This document shows, piece after piece, positions 49,028 through 57,958 of a stretch of DNA of 64,000 bases (positions are counted from its first letter, which is position 1; each line of letters opens with the position of its first letter). The DNA lies in the NCBI GenBank assembly GCA_005223185.1, contig NJBN01000005.1, positions 217,091-281,090 of the forward strand, written 5' to 3'. This DNA comes from a candidate division LCP-89 bacterium B3_LCP. Its GTDB lineage: Bacteria > Electryoneota > B3-LCP. A model generated the notes under the pieces. The model searched no databases and was not told where the DNA came from. It saw only the letters and a program-made list of their open reading frames with translations. The position numbers were made by a program, and so were the translations under genes.

Positions 49028-49612
49028 AGCGTTTGCAATAAGATCTCTCTGTACCCCTTTTAAGCTTTTGGACTACTGATATGTTCCTGTCAGATTGCCA
49101 TATAACACTATACCTACTAATATTAATGACGCTTTTTTTCAGCAGAGGGTTACATAAGATCGAAGGAATGTGTGAAAGAAGGCTCTATATTTTAATTCAA
49201 ACGGGGGACGCATGAATGAATTCATACGCCCAAATTCTGGGTAAAGTCGCTGAAGCGACTGGTTTTGTGGTCAGAAATTAGTGACACCATATGCACGGGT
49301 GAATCCCGCTTTGAAGTTTTCTACTGGATTCCCGCTTTCGCGGGAATGACAATCGTTAGGATTATTTTTAGATTTATGCACTATAGAGGTAGGCGGCCCC
49401 GATTATAGACTAAACTAACAATGTCATTCCGGGAGGGCTTCAGCCCTACTCCGGAATCCAGTGGTGGAAGGTTGAATACAGGACGAGCTTTGCACTACCT
49501 ATACAAGCGTCAGGTCACATCAGTCAGCTGACGGACAGGCTCCCCGCCTGAGCGGGAAACCAAGACCTGGGCAATACCACAAGAAGGTTCACCGCAGGGG
49601 CGTCAATATCCC
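49028..49612. repeat. Repeat-rich intergenic region
   Basis: I see no gene in these 585 bases. The composite two-hairpin element at 49205-49264 is an inverted copy (4 differences in about 60 bases) of 22863-22921. Near 49334-49351 a CCCGC/GCGGG palindrome stands in the widespread 'GGATTCCCGC...GCGGGAATGACA' setting. Near 49423-49461 a nested palindrome (ATTCCGG...AGGGCTTCAGCCCT...CCGGAAT) is present. Small palindromes continue to 49600. Confidence 0.65.
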
Positions 49613-49641
49613 TTGACTTTAATGCGGAAATTGGCTATATT
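49613..49641 (+). promoter_or_regulatory. Promoter of the exported AmmeMemoRadiSam operon
   Basis: TTGACT and TATATT are separated by 17 bases, about 80 bases before the first gene. No second clear promoter is seen before 53913, so the four genes are likely one transcript. Confidence 0.8.
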
Positions 49642-49720
49642 GTTGTTTCAGGTCATGATCAATCTAACATGGCATCTTTGGTTGAACGAGCAAACCCAAA
49701 GAAAATCACCGGAGTAAATT

Positions 49721-50185
49721 TTGAACACACAAAACCTTGAAGATATCGTCGGCCAGCTTGGGGATGTCCCCCTGTTTCAGGTTTTTTCCGCAGAGGAATT
49801 GAACCTGATACTTCCCTACTTCGAGATACGCACGTTCGAGGTGAGCACCACTCTTTTCGAAGAAGGAGACCGGGGTGATTATGTCTGCATAGTCCTGGAA
49901 GGGACCATAGACATAAGAAAGGAAAGTCTTTCGGGCAACCAGAAGATTTCCGCCAAGTTTGGTCACGGGTCGATTATGGGGGAAATGGCAATTATAGACC
50001 ATTATCCCAGATCAACCACGGCAAAGGTAACGGCAAATTCACGGCTTCTGATCTTGAAGCGAGAGAATTTCGAGACGTTGATAGAAGAAGCGCCGCAACT
50101 GGCGGTGCGCTTTCTGCGTGAAATAGCGCGCATGCTATCACTGCGATTACGGCGCACCAGCGGAAGATTTTCGGATATTTTCTAA
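49721..50185 (+). CDS. Single-domain cyclic-nucleotide-binding (Crp/cNMP-fold) protein
   Basis: The 154-residue product starts at TTG 49721, with GGAG 6 bases upstream. It is almost entirely one cyclic-nucleotide-binding domain: FEVSTTLFEEGDRGDYVCIVLEGTIDI, then FGHGSIMGEMAIIDHYPRSTTAKV (phosphate-binding cassette, with the glutamate and the RSTTA arginine) and a helix. There is no DNA-binding helix-turn-helix and no membrane segment. It could sense a cyclic nucleotide and act on a partner. It is separated by 9 bases from the next gene, so a link to the AmmeMemoRadiSam system is inferred. Confidence 0.88.
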   Translation: MNTQNLEDIVGQLGDVPLFQVFSAEELNLILPYFEIRTFEVSTTLFEEGDRGDYVCIVLEGTIDIRKESLSGNQKISAKFGHGSIMGEMAIIDHYPRSTTAKVTANSRLLILKRENFETLIEEAPQLAVRFLREIARMLSLRLRRTSGRFSDIF

Positions 50186-50194
50186 ATTTATAAG

Positions 50195-51157
50195 ATGCAG
50201 CGTCGCCAATTCATGAAATATTCCGTCAGCCTTGCGGGAGCATTCGCTTCTCTCAATGTTCAGGGGACGCCCACAAGTAAGACACCCAGGGTTAGCCTTG
50301 TAAGGGATCCCGGTTGTTTCAATGGTGACCGGATTGACAGGAGAAGGGTTGGTGAGTTATTAGATAAACTGCTACGGGTACAATTCGATGTAGCCGATCC
50401 TGTTGATGTTTTCAGACGCTATTTCACACCCGGTGAGAGGATTGGCATAAAGGTGAATTGTCTGTCCGGCAGGAGGATGTCCACGCACGTCGAACTGGTT
50501 GACAAAATCGTTGAGAGGCTTATCAGCGCCGATATCCCCGCAGAGGACATAATCATCTGGGACCGGATGAATGAGGATTTGCGTAGGGGCGGGTTCGAAC
50601 TTCGGTCACCCGGGGAAGCCGTTGCGTGTGCCGGATGTGACGTATTAGGATATGAATCCAAGATTACCGTTCACAGATCCATAGGTTCTCTGTTCACCAA
50701 GGCTGTTACCAGGTTGTGTACTGCTCAGATAAACGTGCCTGTATTAAAAGATCACGGTATTGTGGGCGTTACTATAGGAATGAAGAACTTCTTCGGTGCT
50801 ATCCATAACCCCAATAAATACCATCCGAATCGCGGCGATCCTTATGTTGCGGATTTATACTCGCATCCTGACATTGGGGGAAAGGTGCGCATGACCATCG
50901 TGGATGCACTGGAGGTTCAACCCGAAGGTGGGCCTCCTTATCAGCCGGAATGGGTGGAAAAATATGGAGGACTCCTAACAGGCAATGATCCTGTTGCACT
51001 AGATCGCGTGGGCTGGGATATCATCGAGAAGCGCCGCAACCAGAGAGGCTTGCCTTCTCTGAAAGAGGCGAATCGCGAACCGACATATATTCATACTGCG
51101 GCTGACCTGAATCTGGGCGTCGATGACCTAAGCGCCATTAATATAAGACGATCCTGA
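50195..51157 (+). CDS. DUF362-family protein with twin-arginine signal
   Basis: The 320-residue product begins MQRRQFMKYSVSLAGAF, with a twin-arginine (R3-R4) motif followed by a hydrophobic stretch, so Tat export is likely. The body matches the DUF362 family (GERIGIKVNCLSG, INVPVLKDHGIVGVTIGMKNFFGAIHNPNKYH, IVDALEVQPEGGP). Family members are often near iron-sulfur proteins, and their reaction is unknown. There is no ferredoxin domain. Its stop overlaps the next start (TGATG), so the two are translated together. Confidence 0.88.
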   Translation: MQRRQFMKYSVSLAGAFASLNVQGTPTSKTPRVSLVRDPGCFNGDRIDRRRVGELLDKLLRVQFDVADPVDVFRRYFTPGERIGIKVNCLSGRRMSTHVELVDKIVERLISADIPAEDIIIWDRMNEDLRRGGFELRSPGEAVACAGCDVLGYESKITVHRSIGSLFTKAVTRLCTAQINVPVLKDHGIVGVTIGMKNFFGAIHNPNKYHPNRGDPYVADLYSHPDIGGKVRMTIVDALEVQPEGGPPYQPEWVEKYGGLLTGNDPVALDRVGWDIIEKRRNQRGLPSLKEANREPTYIHTAADLNLGVDDLSAINIRRS

Positions 51158-52308
51158 TGAAACCGGCGCGAACCGATAATTTTAACCGCAGATCTTTTCT
51201 GCAGACCGCTTGTGCCGCAAGTGCATGCTCTTTGATACCGATGCAGGGTGCGATTAGCGCTGCCGGTCTTTACGAAGTGCTTCCGGAAGCCAAAGTATAT
51301 CTGCATCCGGCTCAATATTACGAAAAGCTTGAGAAGCGCCGGGTAAGATGCACGCTGTGCCCGCGAAAATGTGAAGTTGACGATCAGGAGCGCGGTTACT
51401 GCGGTGTTCGGGAGAACCGCGATGGGGACTATTTCACCTTAGTTTACGGTCGTCCCTGCACACTGCATGTGGATCCCGTTGAGAAGAAGCCTCTGTTTCA
51501 CTTTCTGCCCGGCACGGAGATATTCAGCTTAGCGACTGTGGGTTGTAATGTCAACTGCAAATTCTGTCAGAATTGGCAGATTTCTCAGGTAAGACCGGAA
51601 CAGGAGAGAAGTTACGATGCTCCTCCGGATAAGCTGGTGGAAACGGCTCTGAATTCGCAGACGCCCGCGATTGCGCACACCTACACAGAGCCGGTTATCT
51701 TTTACGAATACGCTAAGGAGATCGGTAAGATAGCGCATGAAAAGGGTTTGAAGAATACATTTATTTCCAACGGGTACATCGAAGAGAAACCGCTTAAGGA
51801 ACTGCTGCCATTTTTGGATGCAGTTAAAATTGATCTGAAAGCCTTCACGGAAAGGTTTTACCAGGAGCTGGTTGTCGGAGAGTTACAGCCGGTATTACGC
51901 TGTTTGGAGATATTGGTCGAAGAGGGAATGTGGACGGAGATAGTCTATTTAGTCATTCCCACGCAGAACGACGACCCGGATGAAATAGGTCAGATGTGCC
52001 GCTGGATAAGATCCAACTTGGGCAGCGACGTCCCCTTGCATTTCACCAGGTTTCATCCACAATACATGTTAAAAACGCTGCCGCCGACGCCGATAAAAAC
52101 TTTAGAGAGATGCCACAGCATCGCCCGGGAAGAAGGGTTGAATTACGTGTATATAGGCAACGTTGCGAGCAACAAAGCTGAACATACTTACTGCGCATCC
52201 TGCGGCGAGATATTGATCCGGAGATCGGGCTACAGAGTGAATATTGAAAAGTTGGACAAGGGCAACTGTCTAAACTGCGGCATTTCCATTCCCGGGATAT
52301 GGGAGTGA
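51157..52308 (+). CDS. amrS: AmmeMemoRadiSam-system radical SAM enzyme with twin-arginine signal
   Basis: The 383-residue product begins with NRRSFLQTACAAS (R11-R12), a good Tat signal. It continues with the family's four-cysteine motif (C65, C68, C72, C82), the radical SAM CX3CX2C cluster site (C130, C134, C137, in VGCNVNCKFCQNW) and YTEPVIFYEYAKEIG. A C-terminal zinc-ribbon-like pair (CASCG, CLNCG) ends it. This enzyme normally occurs with AMMECR1 and MEMO proteins. The reaction is not established. Tat carries folded cofactor proteins, which is consistent with an iron-sulfur enzyme working outside the cytoplasm. It is followed after 24 bases by the MEMO-AMMECR1 gene. Confidence 0.92.
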   Translation: MKPARTDNFNRRSFLQTACAASACSLIPMQGAISAAGLYEVLPEAKVYLHPAQYYEKLEKRRVRCTLCPRKCEVDDQERGYCGVRENRDGDYFTLVYGRPCTLHVDPVEKKPLFHFLPGTEIFSLATVGCNVNCKFCQNWQISQVRPEQERSYDAPPDKLVETALNSQTPAIAHTYTEPVIFYEYAKEIGKIAHEKGLKNTFISNGYIEEKPLKELLPFLDAVKIDLKAFTERFYQELVVGELQPVLRCLEILVEEGMWTEIVYLVIPTQNDDPDEIGQMCRWIRSNLGSDVPLHFTRFHPQYMLKTLPPTPIKTLERCHSIAREEGLNYVYIGNVASNKAEHTYCASCGEILIRRSGYRVNIEKLDKGNCLNCGISIPGIWE

Positions 52309-52332
52309 GAATTTTTTAAGGGGGATTTGGAC

Positions 52333-53913
52333 ATGACACATTCGCTAACCAGGTATTTGTTAATGATTCCGCTTTTAACCGTTCTGCTGTGTATCAGTAC
52401 CTGCGGCGGGCGTTCAGAGGGAGACAAATCCTCATCTTCAAACCAGGAGAGTAAAATGAGTGCGACCATTCCTGCGGAAGATATCCGCAAACCTGCGGTT
52501 GCCGGGAGCTGGTACAGCGATGATCCAGATGAGTTACGCCAACAGCTTGAAGGCTACATGGATTCGGTTGAAGATGCTAAACTGGACAATATAATTGGAC
52601 TGGTCAGTCCTCATGCAGGGTATGTATATTCGGGACCTGTGGCGGCATACGCTTATCGGCAGCTTAAAGGGCGGGAATACGATACGGTGGTTATAGTAGC
52701 TCCCAGCCATGTCGCGAGTTTCCCCTTTGCGGCAGTTTACGGCAGAGGCGGGTATGATACACCTTTGGGACTGGTTCCGGTGAACGTGGAGCTTGCGCAG
52801 AGTATCGCATCAGGAAGTGAACTCATTCAGATCAGCGATAGGGGTCACAGGCAAGAGCATTTAGGCAGACAGGAACATTCATTGGAAATCCAGATCCCCT
52901 TCATGCAACTGGCTTTAGGGGAATTTGAGATAGTGCCGATTGTTATGGGAACTCAGTCGGATGAGGTCGTACATGAATTAGCGAGATCACTGGCAAACAA
53001 CTTAGAAGGTAAAAACGTCCTTTTGGTAGCGTCCAGTGATCTATCGCATTTTCATCCTTATGACGAAGCACGACAGATCGATCAAGGTGTAGTGGAATCG
53101 GTGGATGATTTCGATTTCAACGGTCTGTTGAAGGATCTGAACCGCCGCTCGGTTGAGGCGTGTGGCGGGGGACCGATATGCGCAGTTATGGAAGCGTCCA
53201 AACTGCTGGGCGCTAGTGAAGCGAAAATCCTTAACTACGCCACTTCTGGTGACGTTCCTTCCGGTGATAAAAGAGAGGTGGTGGGCTATCTTTCCGCAGC
53301 GTTCTACAGTGAAAATGGAAGCGCCAAACCAAAAGAAATTACTAAATCCGATAAACAGAAAACGCTGACTCTGGAAGAGAAGCGCACCCTGATGAACATA
53401 GCCAGAACTACCATCGAATGTGTTGTCGAGGGCGAACCGGTTCCTGAATTCGATGTTTCTTCAGCGAAATTATTAGAAGACCGAGGTGCTTTCGTGACAA
53501 TCCACAAGCATGGAAGATTACGAGGTTGCATCGGTTACATAATCGGTGTTAAACCACTCTACCAGACTGTGCGAGAGGTAGCTGAATCAGCGGCATTACG
53601 CGATCCCCGGTTTAATCCGGTTCAACCTTCTGAACTGGATGATCTGGATCTGGAGATTTCCGCTCTTTCCGTTCCCCGGACGATAACCAGCGTTGAAGAA
53701 ATCCAGGTGGGAACTCATGGCATTATCATGCGTAGAGGGTACAACCAGGGGCTGTTGCTTCCGCAAGTTGCCACCGAACAGGGATGGGATCGTCAGACGT
53801 TTCTGGAACATACCTGTCTGAAAGCGGGTCTGCCTGACGATGCCTGGAAGGATAAGGATACGGAAATACAGATCTTCTCTGCTGAGGTTTTCGGTGAGGA
53901 AGAGGTCAAATAA
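52333..53913 (+). CDS. Fused MEMO-AMMECR1 protein of the AmmeMemoRadiSam system, probable lipoprotein
   Basis: I chose the ATG at 52333, with GGGGGA upstream. A TTG two codons earlier is less likely. The product has about 526 residues. It starts with a signal-like segment (LTRYLLMIPLLTVLLCISTC) ending in a lipobox-like cysteine, then a serine-rich linker. The MEMO domain (about 45-335) has the family's HAGYVYSG, APSH, QEHSLEIQIPF and GGGPICAV, including the likely metal histidines and cysteine. The AMMECR1 domain (about 345-525) has RGAFVTIHKHGRLRGCIGY and FNPVQPSELDDLDLEISALS. In most genomes the two are separate and cytoplasmic. Fusion plus an export signal is unusual. Confidence 0.9.
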   Translation: MTHSLTRYLLMIPLLTVLLCISTCGGRSEGDKSSSSNQESKMSATIPAEDIRKPAVAGSWYSDDPDELRQQLEGYMDSVEDAKLDNIIGLVSPHAGYVYSGPVAAYAYRQLKGREYDTVVIVAPSHVASFPFAAVYGRGGYDTPLGLVPVNVELAQSIASGSELIQISDRGHRQEHLGRQEHSLEIQIPFMQLALGEFEIVPIVMGTQSDEVVHELARSLANNLEGKNVLLVASSDLSHFHPYDEARQIDQGVVESVDDFDFNGLLKDLNRRSVEACGGGPICAVMEASKLLGASEAKILNYATSGDVPSGDKREVVGYLSAAFYSENGSAKPKEITKSDKQKTLTLEEKRTLMNIARTTIECVVEGEPVPEFDVSSAKLLEDRGAFVTIHKHGRLRGCIGYIIGVKPLYQTVREVAESAALRDPRFNPVQPSELDDLDLEISALSVPRTITSVEEIQVGTHGIIMRRGYNQGLLLPQVATEQGWDRQTFLEHTCLKAGLPDDAWKDKDTEIQIFSAEVFGEEEVK

Positions 53914-54061: not shown

Positions 54062-57000
54062 ATGATGTTTCGCACCTTTGCAGTTCTAACAGCTTTAGTG
54101 ATGATTCTTTCGCTTGCCGTAGTGGCTAGCGAAATCACGATTCATCGCGACCTGAACATCCCTGAAATAGAATACAGGGATGGTTACCATCATTTCACCA
54201 CTTTCCCGGGTCCTTTGTACGGCGAACCGGGCAATCCGGAGTTACCCTACGTGGGACAGACAGTCTTGCTGCCACCCGGTGAAGAGGTAGTATCAATTCA
54301 ATTGAACAATGAAATATGGGCACTCGCCGCAGAAGGCGTCAAACCCTTTCCAGCGCAGCCGCCTGTACCCTACTCCCATACTGGTGAACAGGTATTCACT
54401 CCCCCGAACCAGTCAGTCTATAACGCCGATGAGCTCCATCCGGCATCTCCGGTATCATCTTTCAGGACTGATTTCCTCAGCGGCCATGGAATCGGATCGT
54501 TCTCCATATGTTCAGCACGTCTTGTGCCAGCATCAGGGGTACTTGAAGCATTGACGTCTTTCGATATGGTTATCCAGACGGCGCCAACTGCCAGAGCGCA
54601 GAATGCATACGCGACTATGCTGAAGAAAACTCAGGCAGTCAACCAGAGGTTAGCCAAATCCGTTGATAATATTGATCTTCTATCGGCATACGGCGCAACT
54701 GATAATACTGACGTAGTGTCAGTTAATTACCTGATCATATCATCTCAGGAAATAGCGGAATACTTCCAGCCGTTGGCTGAATACAGATGCAGCAGAGGAC
54801 AGCAGACTGAGATAGTGCTGGTGGAAGATATCGACATTCAATATGCCGGTTTGGATTTAGCTGACAAGATGCGCAACTGTGTGATAGACTATTACCAGAT
54901 GAACGACCTGGAATATGTACTGATGGCTGGCGATGCCGAGTACGTACCTAAAAGAGGTCTCTTCGCGCAGATAGGAGGAACGGTCGATGAGGATATACCG
55001 GCGGATCTCTACTTTTCCAACTTAGATGGTAATTGGAATGACGATGGCGACAGCCGCTGGGGTGAACCCGGTGAAGCTGATCTCTATTCCGAAGTAGCCG
55101 TAGGGCGCATGGCAATAGACAGCGAAGCCGAAGCTGAGAATTTGATCAACAAGATCATCATGTATGAGAACACTCCGGTTGTCGGCGATTTAGAACACGC
55201 ACTGATGTTAGGTGAAGACTTAGGTTGGATAGTTTGGGGAGGTGAGAATAAGGAGGAGATCCGTTTAGGCAGTTCGATGTGGGGGTACACAACGGTTGGG
55301 TTTCCACCAAACTTCAACGTTGACGTATTGTACGATATGTATTCCGTTTGGTCTCCAATGGACGATCTAATACCGGCTCTGAATGACGGTCTGCACATGG
55401 TAAACCACCTGGGACACTGCAATGTAACCTATTCCATGAAACTGACTAACGGGGTTGTTACGGATGAATATCTGACCAATAACGGCATTAACCACAACTT
55501 CTACATCCCTTATTCGCAGGGGTGTTACAACGGCTCCTTTGATAATAGGACGACCAATTACACTTACTCAATTGACTGCATAGCTGAGGAGTTTACCACA
55601 ATACAAAATGGCGCAGTCGCCTATCTATGCAATTCCAGATATGGGTGGGGTAGCTATAGTAGCACCGGCGGACCGTCACAGTATTACGACCGTCAGTACT
55701 ACGATGCCATTTTCAGCGAAGAAATTTATAGTATAGGCTGGGTTAATGCCGATTCCAAAGAAGATAATGTGCCGTTCCTCAGTCAAGGAGCAACTTACTG
55801 GGTTTACTACGAAATGAACCTGCTGGGTGATCCGGCTATGGATATCTGGACTGCTTCGCCGCAGAGTATAACAGCAACACATCCCGGACAAATAGAAATA
55901 GGTACAACCCAGCTAAGCGTGAGCACCGGCGTTCCCTATGCCACGGTAGCCGTCAGTCGCGAGGATGAAGTTTTAGGATCAGGAACCGCCAACGCTTCAG
56001 GTACAATTCTACTGATTCTAGAAGAGCCGATTTCCGAAGCAGGGGAACTGAGTTTGACTGCCTACAAACATAATTATCTGCCCTACCAAGGCGTGATATA
56101 TGCAGTGCCGGAAAGCGGTCCCTATATGTACCTGACCAGTGTCAGTTACAGTGATGCTTCCGGCGGAAACGACGATGGCAATGCTGACTTAGGTGAGACG
56201 CTCGATATCAGCGCTGATTTCATGAATATCGGTTATGATCCGGCAGTTGGGATAGATGCTTTTCTGACGTGCAATACTTGCGCAGTCAGCATCATAGATG
56301 GCGTGTTAGAGGTCGGTGATCTGGGTTCTATGGAAGCGGTTGAATTTGAAGAAGCCTTTACGGTACAACTGCTGCCATCGGTGCAAGATGGTCAGGTTTT
56401 ACCTTTTATCATCACTCTGGAAGATAATCAGGGATCAAGCTGGGAATATTATTTTGAGGTCACCGCTTATGCGCCGCAACTGCAAATGGTTTCCCACACT
56501 ATAACGGATACCAACGACAACTGGATGACACCGGGGGAAACGGGCAATATCGAAATAGAAATTATCAATAATGGTACTGGAGGGACTACTGACCTGGAAT
56601 TCTGGCTGAGCACTGACAATGCTCTGGCTACTGCGAACCCACAGGGAATTTCTGCGGATGCACTGGCATCCGGGGAATCCTCAGCGGTCGTTGGTTTTGA
56701 ATTCAGCATAGATCCTTCTATGCCGGATCCTTCTTCGCTGGTGGTTTATATCACCGCCCGAGATAGCCGGGACTATGAGAAAGGATTCTTGATTGAGCTA
56801 CCGGTAGGTGGATACTATGATAGCATGGAATCCGGTGTGGGTGAATGGACTCACAGTAGCATAACACCGGGATTTGACGACCAGTGGGGGATGACGGAGC
56901 TGCTGAACCACACTCAAAACGGTAACTCCAGCTGGCATTGCGGTAATGAGGGTTTATATACCTCGAATCTGGATGCTGCCTTGGTTACGCCGGAATACAC

Positions 57001-57958
57001 CATTGACGGCTGTCATCAGCTTCAGTTTCATCAATGGATGAACGCAGAGGTTGCATCTCAAACGATGTATGATGGATACGCTCATGATGGTGGTATAGTA
57101 GAGATGTCTTATAATGGCGGTGATTTTGAACAGATCATTCCGCGTGGCGGTTATCCTTTCCTAATCCGTGATAACGGTTCACCCATGCCGTTTGCTCCTG
57201 AAACTCCGGTATTTTCCGGACAGATACTCTGGGAGGAAGCGATTTTCGACATCGAAGGTCAGGGAACCGTGCAGTTTCGATTCAGGTTTGGGACGAATGG
57301 TGACATTACTCTGAACGGCTGGTTCTTAGATGATCTGTTCTTAGTCAAAACATCTGATCCCAACCCACCGACAAATGTAACCATAGTCAATGCCTCTGCG
57401 GGTGTGCCTGAAGTTGTGCTGACCTGGAACACGCCGGATGTCGAGTTCCTGGATAATAAAGGGATCCCCGGAAGCCGTCCATCGCAGACTTTAGAAGAGT
57501 ACCGCGTTTACCGCAACGGAGTATTTATCGATTCAGTCCAGGCTTTGACCTACAACGATAACCTAAGCTACTTAGAACCGGGGACGTATTTCTACCAGGT
57601 TTCCGGAGTTTTTGACGGCGTTGAGGGATCGTTGTCAGCGCCAGCATCGTACCAATACACCAGCGTCGAACCGGAAACCCAATCCGCGGTTCCTACAGAT
57701 ACCGAACTATCGGCTGCTTACCCCAACCCCTTCAATCCGGTTGTAAACCTGCGGTTAGACATTGCCACGCCGCAGTTGGTGAGATTGACCGTCTATGACC
57801 TGCTGGGAAGGAAAGTTGGCACTCTTCATGATGGTCAAATGATGACCGGTCGTTACACCATAAGTTGGGATGCCAGCGGGCAATCCAGCGGGATGTACTT
57901 CATTCGCATGGAAACAGAATCTTACGAAGGTTTCCAAAAAGTGCTGCTTTTGAAGTAA
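54062..57958 (+). CDS. C25 (gingipain-family) cysteine protease with T9SS sorting domain
   Basis: The 1298-residue product starts with a signal peptide (MMFRTFAVLTALVMILSLAVVAS). A propeptide region of about 200 residues follows, then a C25 catalytic domain (about 220-600) with NHLGHCN (H449/H452) and YSQGCYNG (C488) as the likely catalytic His-Cys pair. Two or more immunoglobulin-like repeats and a jelly-roll-like segment (about 930-1100) come next. A fibronectin-like domain and a T9SS type A tail (AAYPNPFNPVV, VYDLLGRKV, GMYFIRMETESYEGFQKVLLLK) end it. Relatives are secreted surface proteases that process proteins or degrade peptides. A 148-base gap separates it from the AmmeMemoRadiSam operon. 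Confidence 0.92.
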   Translation: MMFRTFAVLTALVMILSLAVVASEITIHRDLNIPEIEYRDGYHHFTTFPGPLYGEPGNPELPYVGQTVLLPPGEEVVSIQLNNEIWALAAEGVKPFPAQPPVPYSHTGEQVFTPPNQSVYNADELHPASPVSSFRTDFLSGHGIGSFSICSARLVPASGVLEALTSFDMVIQTAPTARAQNAYATMLKKTQAVNQRLAKSVDNIDLLSAYGATDNTDVVSVNYLIISSQEIAEYFQPLAEYRCSRGQQTEIVLVEDIDIQYAGLDLADKMRNCVIDYYQMNDLEYVLMAGDAEYVPKRGLFAQIGGTVDEDIPADLYFSNLDGNWNDDGDSRWGEPGEADLYSEVAVGRMAIDSEAEAENLINKIIMYENTPVVGDLEHALMLGEDLGWIVWGGENKEEIRLGSSMWGYTTVGFPPNFNVDVLYDMYSVWSPMDDLIPALNDGLHMVNHLGHCNVTYSMKLTNGVVTDEYLTNNGINHNFYIPYSQGCYNGSFDNRTTNYTYSIDCIAEEFTTIQNGAVAYLCNSRYGWGSYSSTGGPSQYYDRQYYDAIFSEEIYSIGWVNADSKEDNVPFLSQGATYWVYYEMNLLGDPAMDIWTASPQSITATHPGQIEIGTTQLSVSTGVPYATVAVSREDEVLGSGTANASGTILLILEEPISEAGELSLTAYKHNYLPYQGVIYAVPESGPYMYLTSVSYSDASGGNDDGNADLGETLDISADFMNIGYDPAVGIDAFLTCNTCAVSIIDGVLEVGDLGSMEAVEFEEAFTVQLLPSVQDGQVLPFIITLEDNQGSSWEYYFEVTAYAPQLQMVSHTITDTNDNWMTPGETGNIEIEIINNGTGGTTDLEFWLSTDNALATANPQGISADALASGESSAVVGFEFSIDPSMPDPSSLVVYITARDSRDYEKGFLIELPVGGYYDSMESGVGEWTHSSITPGFDDQWGMTELLNHTQNGNSSWHCGNEGLYTSNLDAALVTPEYTIDGCHQLQFHQWMNAEVASQTMYDGYAHDGGIVEMSYNGGDFEQIIPRGGYPFLIRDNGSPMPFAPETPVFSGQILWEEAIFDIEGQGTVQFRFRFGTNGDITLNGWFLDDLFLVKTSDPNPPTNVTIVNASAGVPEVVLTWNTPDVEFLDNKGIPGSRPSQTLEEYRVYRNGVFIDSVQALTYNDNLSYLEPGTYFYQVSGVFDGVEGSLSAPASYQYTSVEPETQSAVPTDTELSAAYPNPFNPVVNLRLDIATPQLVRLTVYDLLGRKVGTLHDGQMMTGRYTISWDASGQSSGMYFIRMETESYEGFQKVLLLK

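Follow-up and report, generated by a model that had tools for sequence, protein, structure and literature searches.

The operon considered here lies at positions 49,613 to 53,913 of a 64,000-nucleotide stretch of DNA (hereafter the window; contig NJBN01000005.1, positions 217,091 to 281,090 of the forward strand, GenBank assembly GCA_005223185.1) from the candidate division LCP-89 bacterium B3_LCP. It comprises four plus-strand genes in the order cNMP (cyclic-nucleotide-binding), DUF362, AmrS and a MEMO–AMMECR1 fusion, with intergenic gaps of 9, -1, and 24 bp (Table 1). The last two genes encode the parts of AmmeMemoRadiSam, a widespread named system that is thought to work inside cells and for which RNA modification has been proposed as a role. 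The assignment follows from the profile scores, AmrS reaching 392.8 bits against TIGR04337 (cut-off: 220) and the fusion protein encoded next to it 274 bits against TIGR04336 (cut-off: 26) and 184 bits against TIGR04335 (cut-off: 99), with the radical SAM (S-adenosylmethionine) motif CxxxCxxC of AmrS and the metal ligands of MEMO both intact in the window proteins.

Table 1. Positions of the operon genes, their parts, and the neighboring peptidase gene in the window (prefixed positions refer to loci of relatives).
Feature	Position	Strand	Basis and remarks
Single-domain cyclic-nucleotide-binding (cNMP) protein	49721..50185	+	PF00027; TTG start; no export signal; optional operon member
DUF362 protein with N-terminal Tat signal MQRRQFMKYSVSLAGAFASL	50195..51157	+	PF04015, lactate-racemase clan CL0471
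AmrS, AmmeMemoRadiSam radical SAM enzyme, with N-terminal Tat signal NRRSFLQTACAASACSLIPMQG	51157..52308	+	TIGR04337; CxxxCxxC intact
MEMO–AMMECR1 fusion, long form	52333..53913	+	ATG at 52333; TTG at 52327 as alternative start
Fusion leader of lipoprotein type, ending at the lipobox-like Cys (codon 24, in ISTC)	52333..52404	+	Leader detectors
Shine–Dalgarno AGGAGAG upstream of the conserved internal start	52445..52451	+	
Predicted short cytosolic MEMO–AMMECR1	52456..53913	+	Internal ATG at 52456, 9 codons ahead of the MEMO domain; 8/8 in lineage A
MEMO domain	52489..53298	+	PF01875/TIGR04336; equivalents of MEMO1 H49, H81, H131, D189, H192, C244 all kept
AMMECR1 domain	53395..53892	+	PF01871/TIGR04335
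C25 peptidase with Por secretion tail, neighbor, not claimed as part of the system	54062..57958	+	Profile match
C25 peptidase homologs	54062-57958; L041:8898-12788; L044:1670-5683; L046:7719-9464; L196:1116-5123		

The DUF362 protein (MQRRQFMK...) and AmrS (...NRRSFLQT...) begin with signals of the twin-arginine translocation (Tat) type, in which a twin-arginine motif precedes a hydrophobic region and is kept in homologs, and the genome encodes TatC. The fusion begins with MTHSLTRYLLMIPLLTVLLCISTC, a lipobox-like leader ending in ISTC. An earlier note on this DNA, made from the sequence alone, had assigned export signals to all four operon proteins; they were found on three, the cNMP protein being signal-free. 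Its reading of twin-arginine signals on DUF362 and AmrS was borne out both by the leader detectors and by recurrence in homologs, and the hydrophobic segment it had described on the fusion is likewise present, although the lipobox is non-canonical in having Thr at position -1.

The recurrence of these leaders was followed in all 39 genomes of the window's phylum in the collection, searched with the three family models, and in a 396-genome sample of a second phylum (that of an Ignavibacteria genome) in which the MEMO proteins were inspected in part; a genome scan with a single protein as query yielded one distant relative. N-termini, leaders and sequences were analyzed on loci fetched from the searched genomes. 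All homologs from the window's family carried the same leaders, the Tat signal of DUF362 was also found in L041, L044, L046, L047, L157, and L158, and Tat signals were present on 23 AmrS across the two phyla. Signal peptides therefore recur across genera, families and phyla, as the earlier note had proposed to examine, whereas the gene order DUF362–AmrS–MEMO/AMMECR1, which it had suggested tracing across genomes of the FCB (Fibrobacterota–Chlorobiota–Bacteroidota) group, was found only in the window's own family. AmrS proteins with complete N-termini were of a long type, always Tat-positive, or a short type, always Tat-negative and often encoded in the same genome (0/33 leaderless-type AmrS scored as Tat); since all family homologs share the leaders and none of the leaderless type does, the leaders are not a product of chance. 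Leaderless AmrS/MEMO paralogs were present in many of the Tat-AmrS genomes. Where AmrS and MEMO genes were adjacent, both had a leader in 19 pairs, neither in 8 and only one in 3 (Fisher p 6e-5), and two of the three mixed loci were detection failures (L061 has LTQGC and L069 is without the MEMO N-terminus). Leaders were found on 27 of 39 fused MEMO–AMMECR1 proteins vs. 2 of 46 single MEMO proteins. Most homologs have a canonical lipobox, with A, S or G at position -1 in L041, L044-L047, and L051.

A phylogenetic analysis of AmrS placed the short leaderless proteins of the window's phylum in one clade (support 100*), with the exception of L159 of genome G004, which fell elsewhere. The Tat-AmrS formed a lineage A (the window and families f1, f7, and f8; support 99*), a lineage B (14 rows; support 100*) and a lineage C represented by L141, whose kin L142, L143, and L152 were left out of the tree as incomplete sequences. 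A single origin of Tat-AmrS was neither shown nor rejected (approximately unbiased test, p-AU 0.157). In the MEMO tree lineage A grouped with cytosolic MEMO (99/99), apart from lineages B and C, and a single clade of all leadered MEMO was weakly rejected (p-AU 0.029). The alignments retained the six MEMO1 active-site residues in 28/28 leadered MEMO proteins and the radical SAM CxxxCxxC in 23/23 Tat-AmrS, and the exported AmrS scored equal to or above cytosolic AmrS against TIGR04337. In all 14 lineage B AmrS an insert between the Tat signal and the core carries CxxCH and then an invariant His ahead of the usual Cys motif. The insert may hold a c-type heme, which would fit both export and electron supply, and a zinc site fits equally; cytochrome c assembly genes, present in 38/39 genomes, do not discriminate the heme reading.

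A membrane protein of about 720 amino acids with a central SpeE-like domain (PF01564) often adjoins the exported genes in lineages B and C. In its full-length form with 14 transmembrane (TM) segments it was found in 19 of the 20 genomes of the window's phylum with Tat-AmrS vs. none of the 19 without (p 3e-10), and the lone Tat-AmrS genome lacking it is 77% complete. In the second phylum the protein occurred in 7/396 genomes, the same seven for which the MEMO proteins inspected included a leadered MEMO–AMMECR1, adjoining it in six; Tat-AmrS was seen in six of the seven, and the AmrS of the seventh lies beyond the contig end. The window's own genome encodes the protein at G000:C1:22806-24968, on the same contig and about 245 kb from the operon. 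As the gene is unlinked to the operon in the window's family, linkage does not account for its co-occurrence there. Alignment-averaged hydrophobicity gave 14 TM segments, seven on either side of the soluble domain, which lies on the side poor in lysine and arginine (K/R) in 19/19 sequences (17.5 vs. 4.3 K/R) and is therefore, by the positive-inside rule, predicted to be periplasmic. The domain keeps Gly, acidic, and Asp positions of the kind seen in SAM-binding cores. Most likely the protein is a fourth component that would supply or handle SAM, or a SAM-derived nucleoside, for AmrS.

Lineage A fusions have a further feature in common. Each of the eight has an in-frame ATG precisely nine codons upstream of the MEMO domain, within a linker that shows no other conservation. 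The Shine–Dalgarno sequence of this internal start averages -7.7 kcal/mol, against -2.7 kcal/mol at the remaining codons of these genes (0/100,000 resamples as low), is encoded by differing amino acids across the genomes and is weakest in L044. Leaderless relatives of family f2 start at -8 to -10 in four of six cases, with Shine–Dalgarno values of -6.5 to -10.8 that equal lineage A in strength. Genomes of lineage A have, by the family-model searches, one AMMECR1 and one good MEMO, yet retain a cytosolic AmrS, and for this reason the one gene probably serves both compartments, giving rise to a lipoprotein and a cytosolic form of MEMO–AMMECR1. In the window's own genome the single MEMO and the single AMMECR1 found by a genome profile search are both within the fusion gene, and a second, leaderless AmrS is encoded on another contig (G000:C18:19933-20889, locus L038), where inspection of the locus revealed no MEMO or AMMECR1 nearby. 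The simplest history would be one in which a leader was added to a cytosolic MEMO–AMMECR1 whose original start codon stayed in place. The earlier note had held that its proposal would fall if the true starts lay downstream of the hydrophobic segments; this half applies to the fusion, with its conserved internal start, and does not apply to AmrS or DUF362. For the fusion, which that note took to be exported, a cytosolic form is probably made as well.

Leaders, their recurrence and pairing, the co-occurring membrane protein, the internal start, and the tree placements are features observed in the genomes. Strong support for export of the three leadered proteins (AmrS, DUF362, and the fusion) comes from the recurrence of the signals in different genera, families and both phyla, from the pairing of AmrS and MEMO leaders, and from the co-occurring membrane partner with its predicted periplasmic domain. 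We consider it reasonably probable that the operon represents an extracytoplasmic AmmeMemoRadiSam system, which would stand beside the cytosolic one and would include the 14-TM partner and the dual-start fusion gene. Several points tell against this reading. Localization is predicted from sequence only, the Tat, lipobox, and Sec (general secretory) leaders having been scored with simple home-made detectors instead of SignalP, and the one for Tat also returns false positives (4 matches among the 41 open reading frames of the window, two of them resistance–nodulation–division pumps with RRP before the first TM segment). As the sequences are related, the p-values of 6e-5 and 3e-10 overstate independence. 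With Thr at -1 instead of G, A or S, the window copy of the fusion is classed as lipoprotein-like, and in the second phylum two loci (L146 and L149) have a Sec-like MEMO leader without Tat-AmrS. We know of no radical SAM enzyme shown to work outside the cytoplasm and of no source of SAM or of low-potential electrons there. The window genome's 14-TM protein has NLPGP at the DSSDP position and thus no catalytic Asp of spermidine synthase, matched no curated NCBIfam model at cut-off, and stayed below the curated SpeE threshold (66 vs. 249.6 bits against TIGR00417); for these reasons it does not classify as a spermidine synthase, and the ligand of its SAM-binding-like domain is a guess.

The leaders could also do no more than tether ordinary enzymes, as N-terminal membrane anchors that leave the catalytic domains of AmrS and the fusion inside. 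SAM and reductant are located in the cytoplasm, the Thr of the window lipobox is non-canonical, and the MEMO–AMMECR1 proteins of family f5 (L042 and L064) have as leader a simple TM segment that contains no Cys and precedes positively charged residues (ARRK or STRNK), as would fit a C-terminus inside. We nevertheless hold tethering to be unlikely, since RRxFL before a moderately hydrophobic segment, as found on 23 AmrS, is a Tat export code and not an anchor, most fusions have a lipobox-type Cys that once lipidated puts the domains outside, and the soluble domain of the co-occurring partner falls on the periplasmic side by the positive-inside rule. It is distinctly unlikely that only AmrS and DUF362 are exported and the fusion is cytosolic, made from 52456 with its upstream leader seldom or never translated. 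The invariant internal ATG with its Shine–Dalgarno sequence matches the start of leaderless relatives, several relatives have a weak Shine–Dalgarno sequence at the upstream start, and the MEMO domain of lineage A is of the cytosolic type in the tree, but in each of the eight lineage A leaders the start, the hydrophobic core and the Cys persist despite differing sequences, as would be unexpected if they were untranslated. Moreover, the upstream ATG of the window has a stronger Shine–Dalgarno sequence than the internal one (-11.2 vs. -7.4), and in lineages B and C the leader is present but the internal ATG is absent.

Finally, the exported proteins might have lost radical SAM chemistry and been co-opted as metal-binding or redox proteins of the envelope, MEMO through Fe/Cu and AmrS as an Fe-S (iron–sulfur) electron carrier. 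Such a role would suit a periplasm in which SAM is not known to occur, the Fe and Cu binding of MEMO1, and an insert in lineage B AmrS whose CxxCH may bind heme. Given that exported AmrS keep CxxxCxxC and score no lower than cytosolic ones against TIGR04337, and that the partner has a SAM-fold domain, we regard co-option as very unlikely.

Under the preferred reading of an extracytoplasmic system, we infer localization, the two protein forms, the part played by the membrane protein in SAM handling, and the modification of a substrate as follows. Tat would carry DUF362 and AmrS, the latter with its Fe-S cluster, out of the cytoplasm in folded form, and MEMO–AMMECR1 would leave via Sec to be anchored as a lipoprotein. 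The 14-TM protein would provide AmrS with SAM or a nucleoside derived from it, or handle such compounds, and AmrS together with the Fe/Cu site of MEMO would modify an envelope substrate (a protein, a cofactor, or a quinone-like molecule, and not RNA). In lineage A one fusion gene would feed both the periplasmic AmrS and its cytosolic paralog. The boldest version, periplasmic SAM radical chemistry in which the 14-TM SpeE-fold protein feeds SAM, the AmrS of one lineage is reduced via a c-type heme of its own and the dual-start MEMO–AMMECR1 serves both compartments, is offered tentatively and is doubtful as a whole. The interpretation in the earlier note, of an exported version that points to an extracytoplasmic substrate, is partly supported and is qualified by the probable cytosolic form of the fusion.

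Memo-Ammecr1 radical SAM systems are credited in PMC7159879 to Burroughs et al. 2019. The window system would be a variant of the known AmmeMemoRadiSam system, with which it shares the three co-encoded families above their cut-offs and intact active sites. It differs in its Tat and lipoprotein-type leaders, in the fusion of MEMO to AMMECR1 with an internal second start, in the 14-TM SpeE-like partner that it has by co-occurrence, and, in the window's lineage, in the Tat-DUF362. Human MEMO1 binds Fe and Cu through the metal ligands H49, H81, and C244 (PDB 7KQ8, 3BCZ; PMC11081632), and its fold and this site are conserved in the window MEMO. Unlike the cytosolic MEMO1, the latter is predicted to be exported, is fused to AMMECR1 and is linked to a radical SAM enzyme. 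The 14-TM partner resembles membrane-fused spermidine-synthase-like proteins (PF01564; NF037959, fused MFS [major facilitator superfamily]/spermidine synthase; PRK03612) in having a PF01564 core between TM blocks, and departs from them in its 7+7 TM segments, a domain predicted to lie outside, an unconserved catalytic Asp and its tie to exported AmrS; apart from L145 for NF037959 the partners score below curated cut-offs. DUF362 (PF04015) belongs to Pfam clan CL0471 together with DUF2088 of the LarA family, lactate racemase (PMC11770544). The window protein matches PF04015 and no NCBIfam model in the profile search, and unlike the known members of the clan it is predicted to be Tat-exported. 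Its GVTIGMKNFFG stretch may resemble the LarA core. A structure prediction from the single sequence gave no usable model (pLDDT, predicted local distance difference test, 32). A literature search found no paper on an exported AmmeMemoRadiSam or an exported radical SAM enzyme, which is weak evidence as subscription journals were mostly outside its coverage.

AmmeMemoRadiSam, human MEMO1, and AMMECR1 are conserved, and export of a version whose active site is intact would speak against a system acting on RNA alone and direct the substrate search to envelope molecules. It also poses the problem of SAM and electron supply to a radical SAM enzyme outside the cytoplasm, for which the 14-TM protein is a candidate partner by co-occurrence, and the dual-start gene would be a direct link between the exported and the cytosolic systems.

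As for the remainder of the locus, the cNMP gene was rejected as a core member because among the relatives' loci examined a close homolog stands at the same place in L041 only. It is the first gene of the operon, as the earlier note had said, but the single promoter placed before it in that note corresponds to a chance-level consensus match at 49613 (6 matches in the region vs. 6.6 expected). Upstream, positions 49100-49700 form a long non-coding stretch with short inverted repeats (e.g., CCCGCTTTCGCGGG), and the 21-mer CCCGCTTTCGCGGGAATGACA at 49331 occurs once in the window. The DUF362 and AmrS genes are separated in L041 by genes for a phasin-like protein and a UbiB/ABC1 kinase (L041:3953-5956), and in family f8, where both products have Tat signals, by one for asparaginase II (L158:2033-3049).

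In 4/6 family genomes the gene after the fusion encodes a C25 peptidase with a Por tail, and a close homolog adjoins the 14-TM gene in the distant genome G006; this neighborhood is a weak hint of a secreted-protein substrate. The idea that the open reading frames at 27.5-29.9 kb of the window form one broken C25 peptidase was abandoned, since what they share is chiefly the secretion tail. Genomes G002 and G009 have a leaderless AmrS and no MEMO match in the phylum-wide family-model search. The distant MEMO-like proteins of family f3 (L070, L071, L072, and L073; about 100 bits) have a common N-terminal region of about 110 residues (LRDPQGFSE...).

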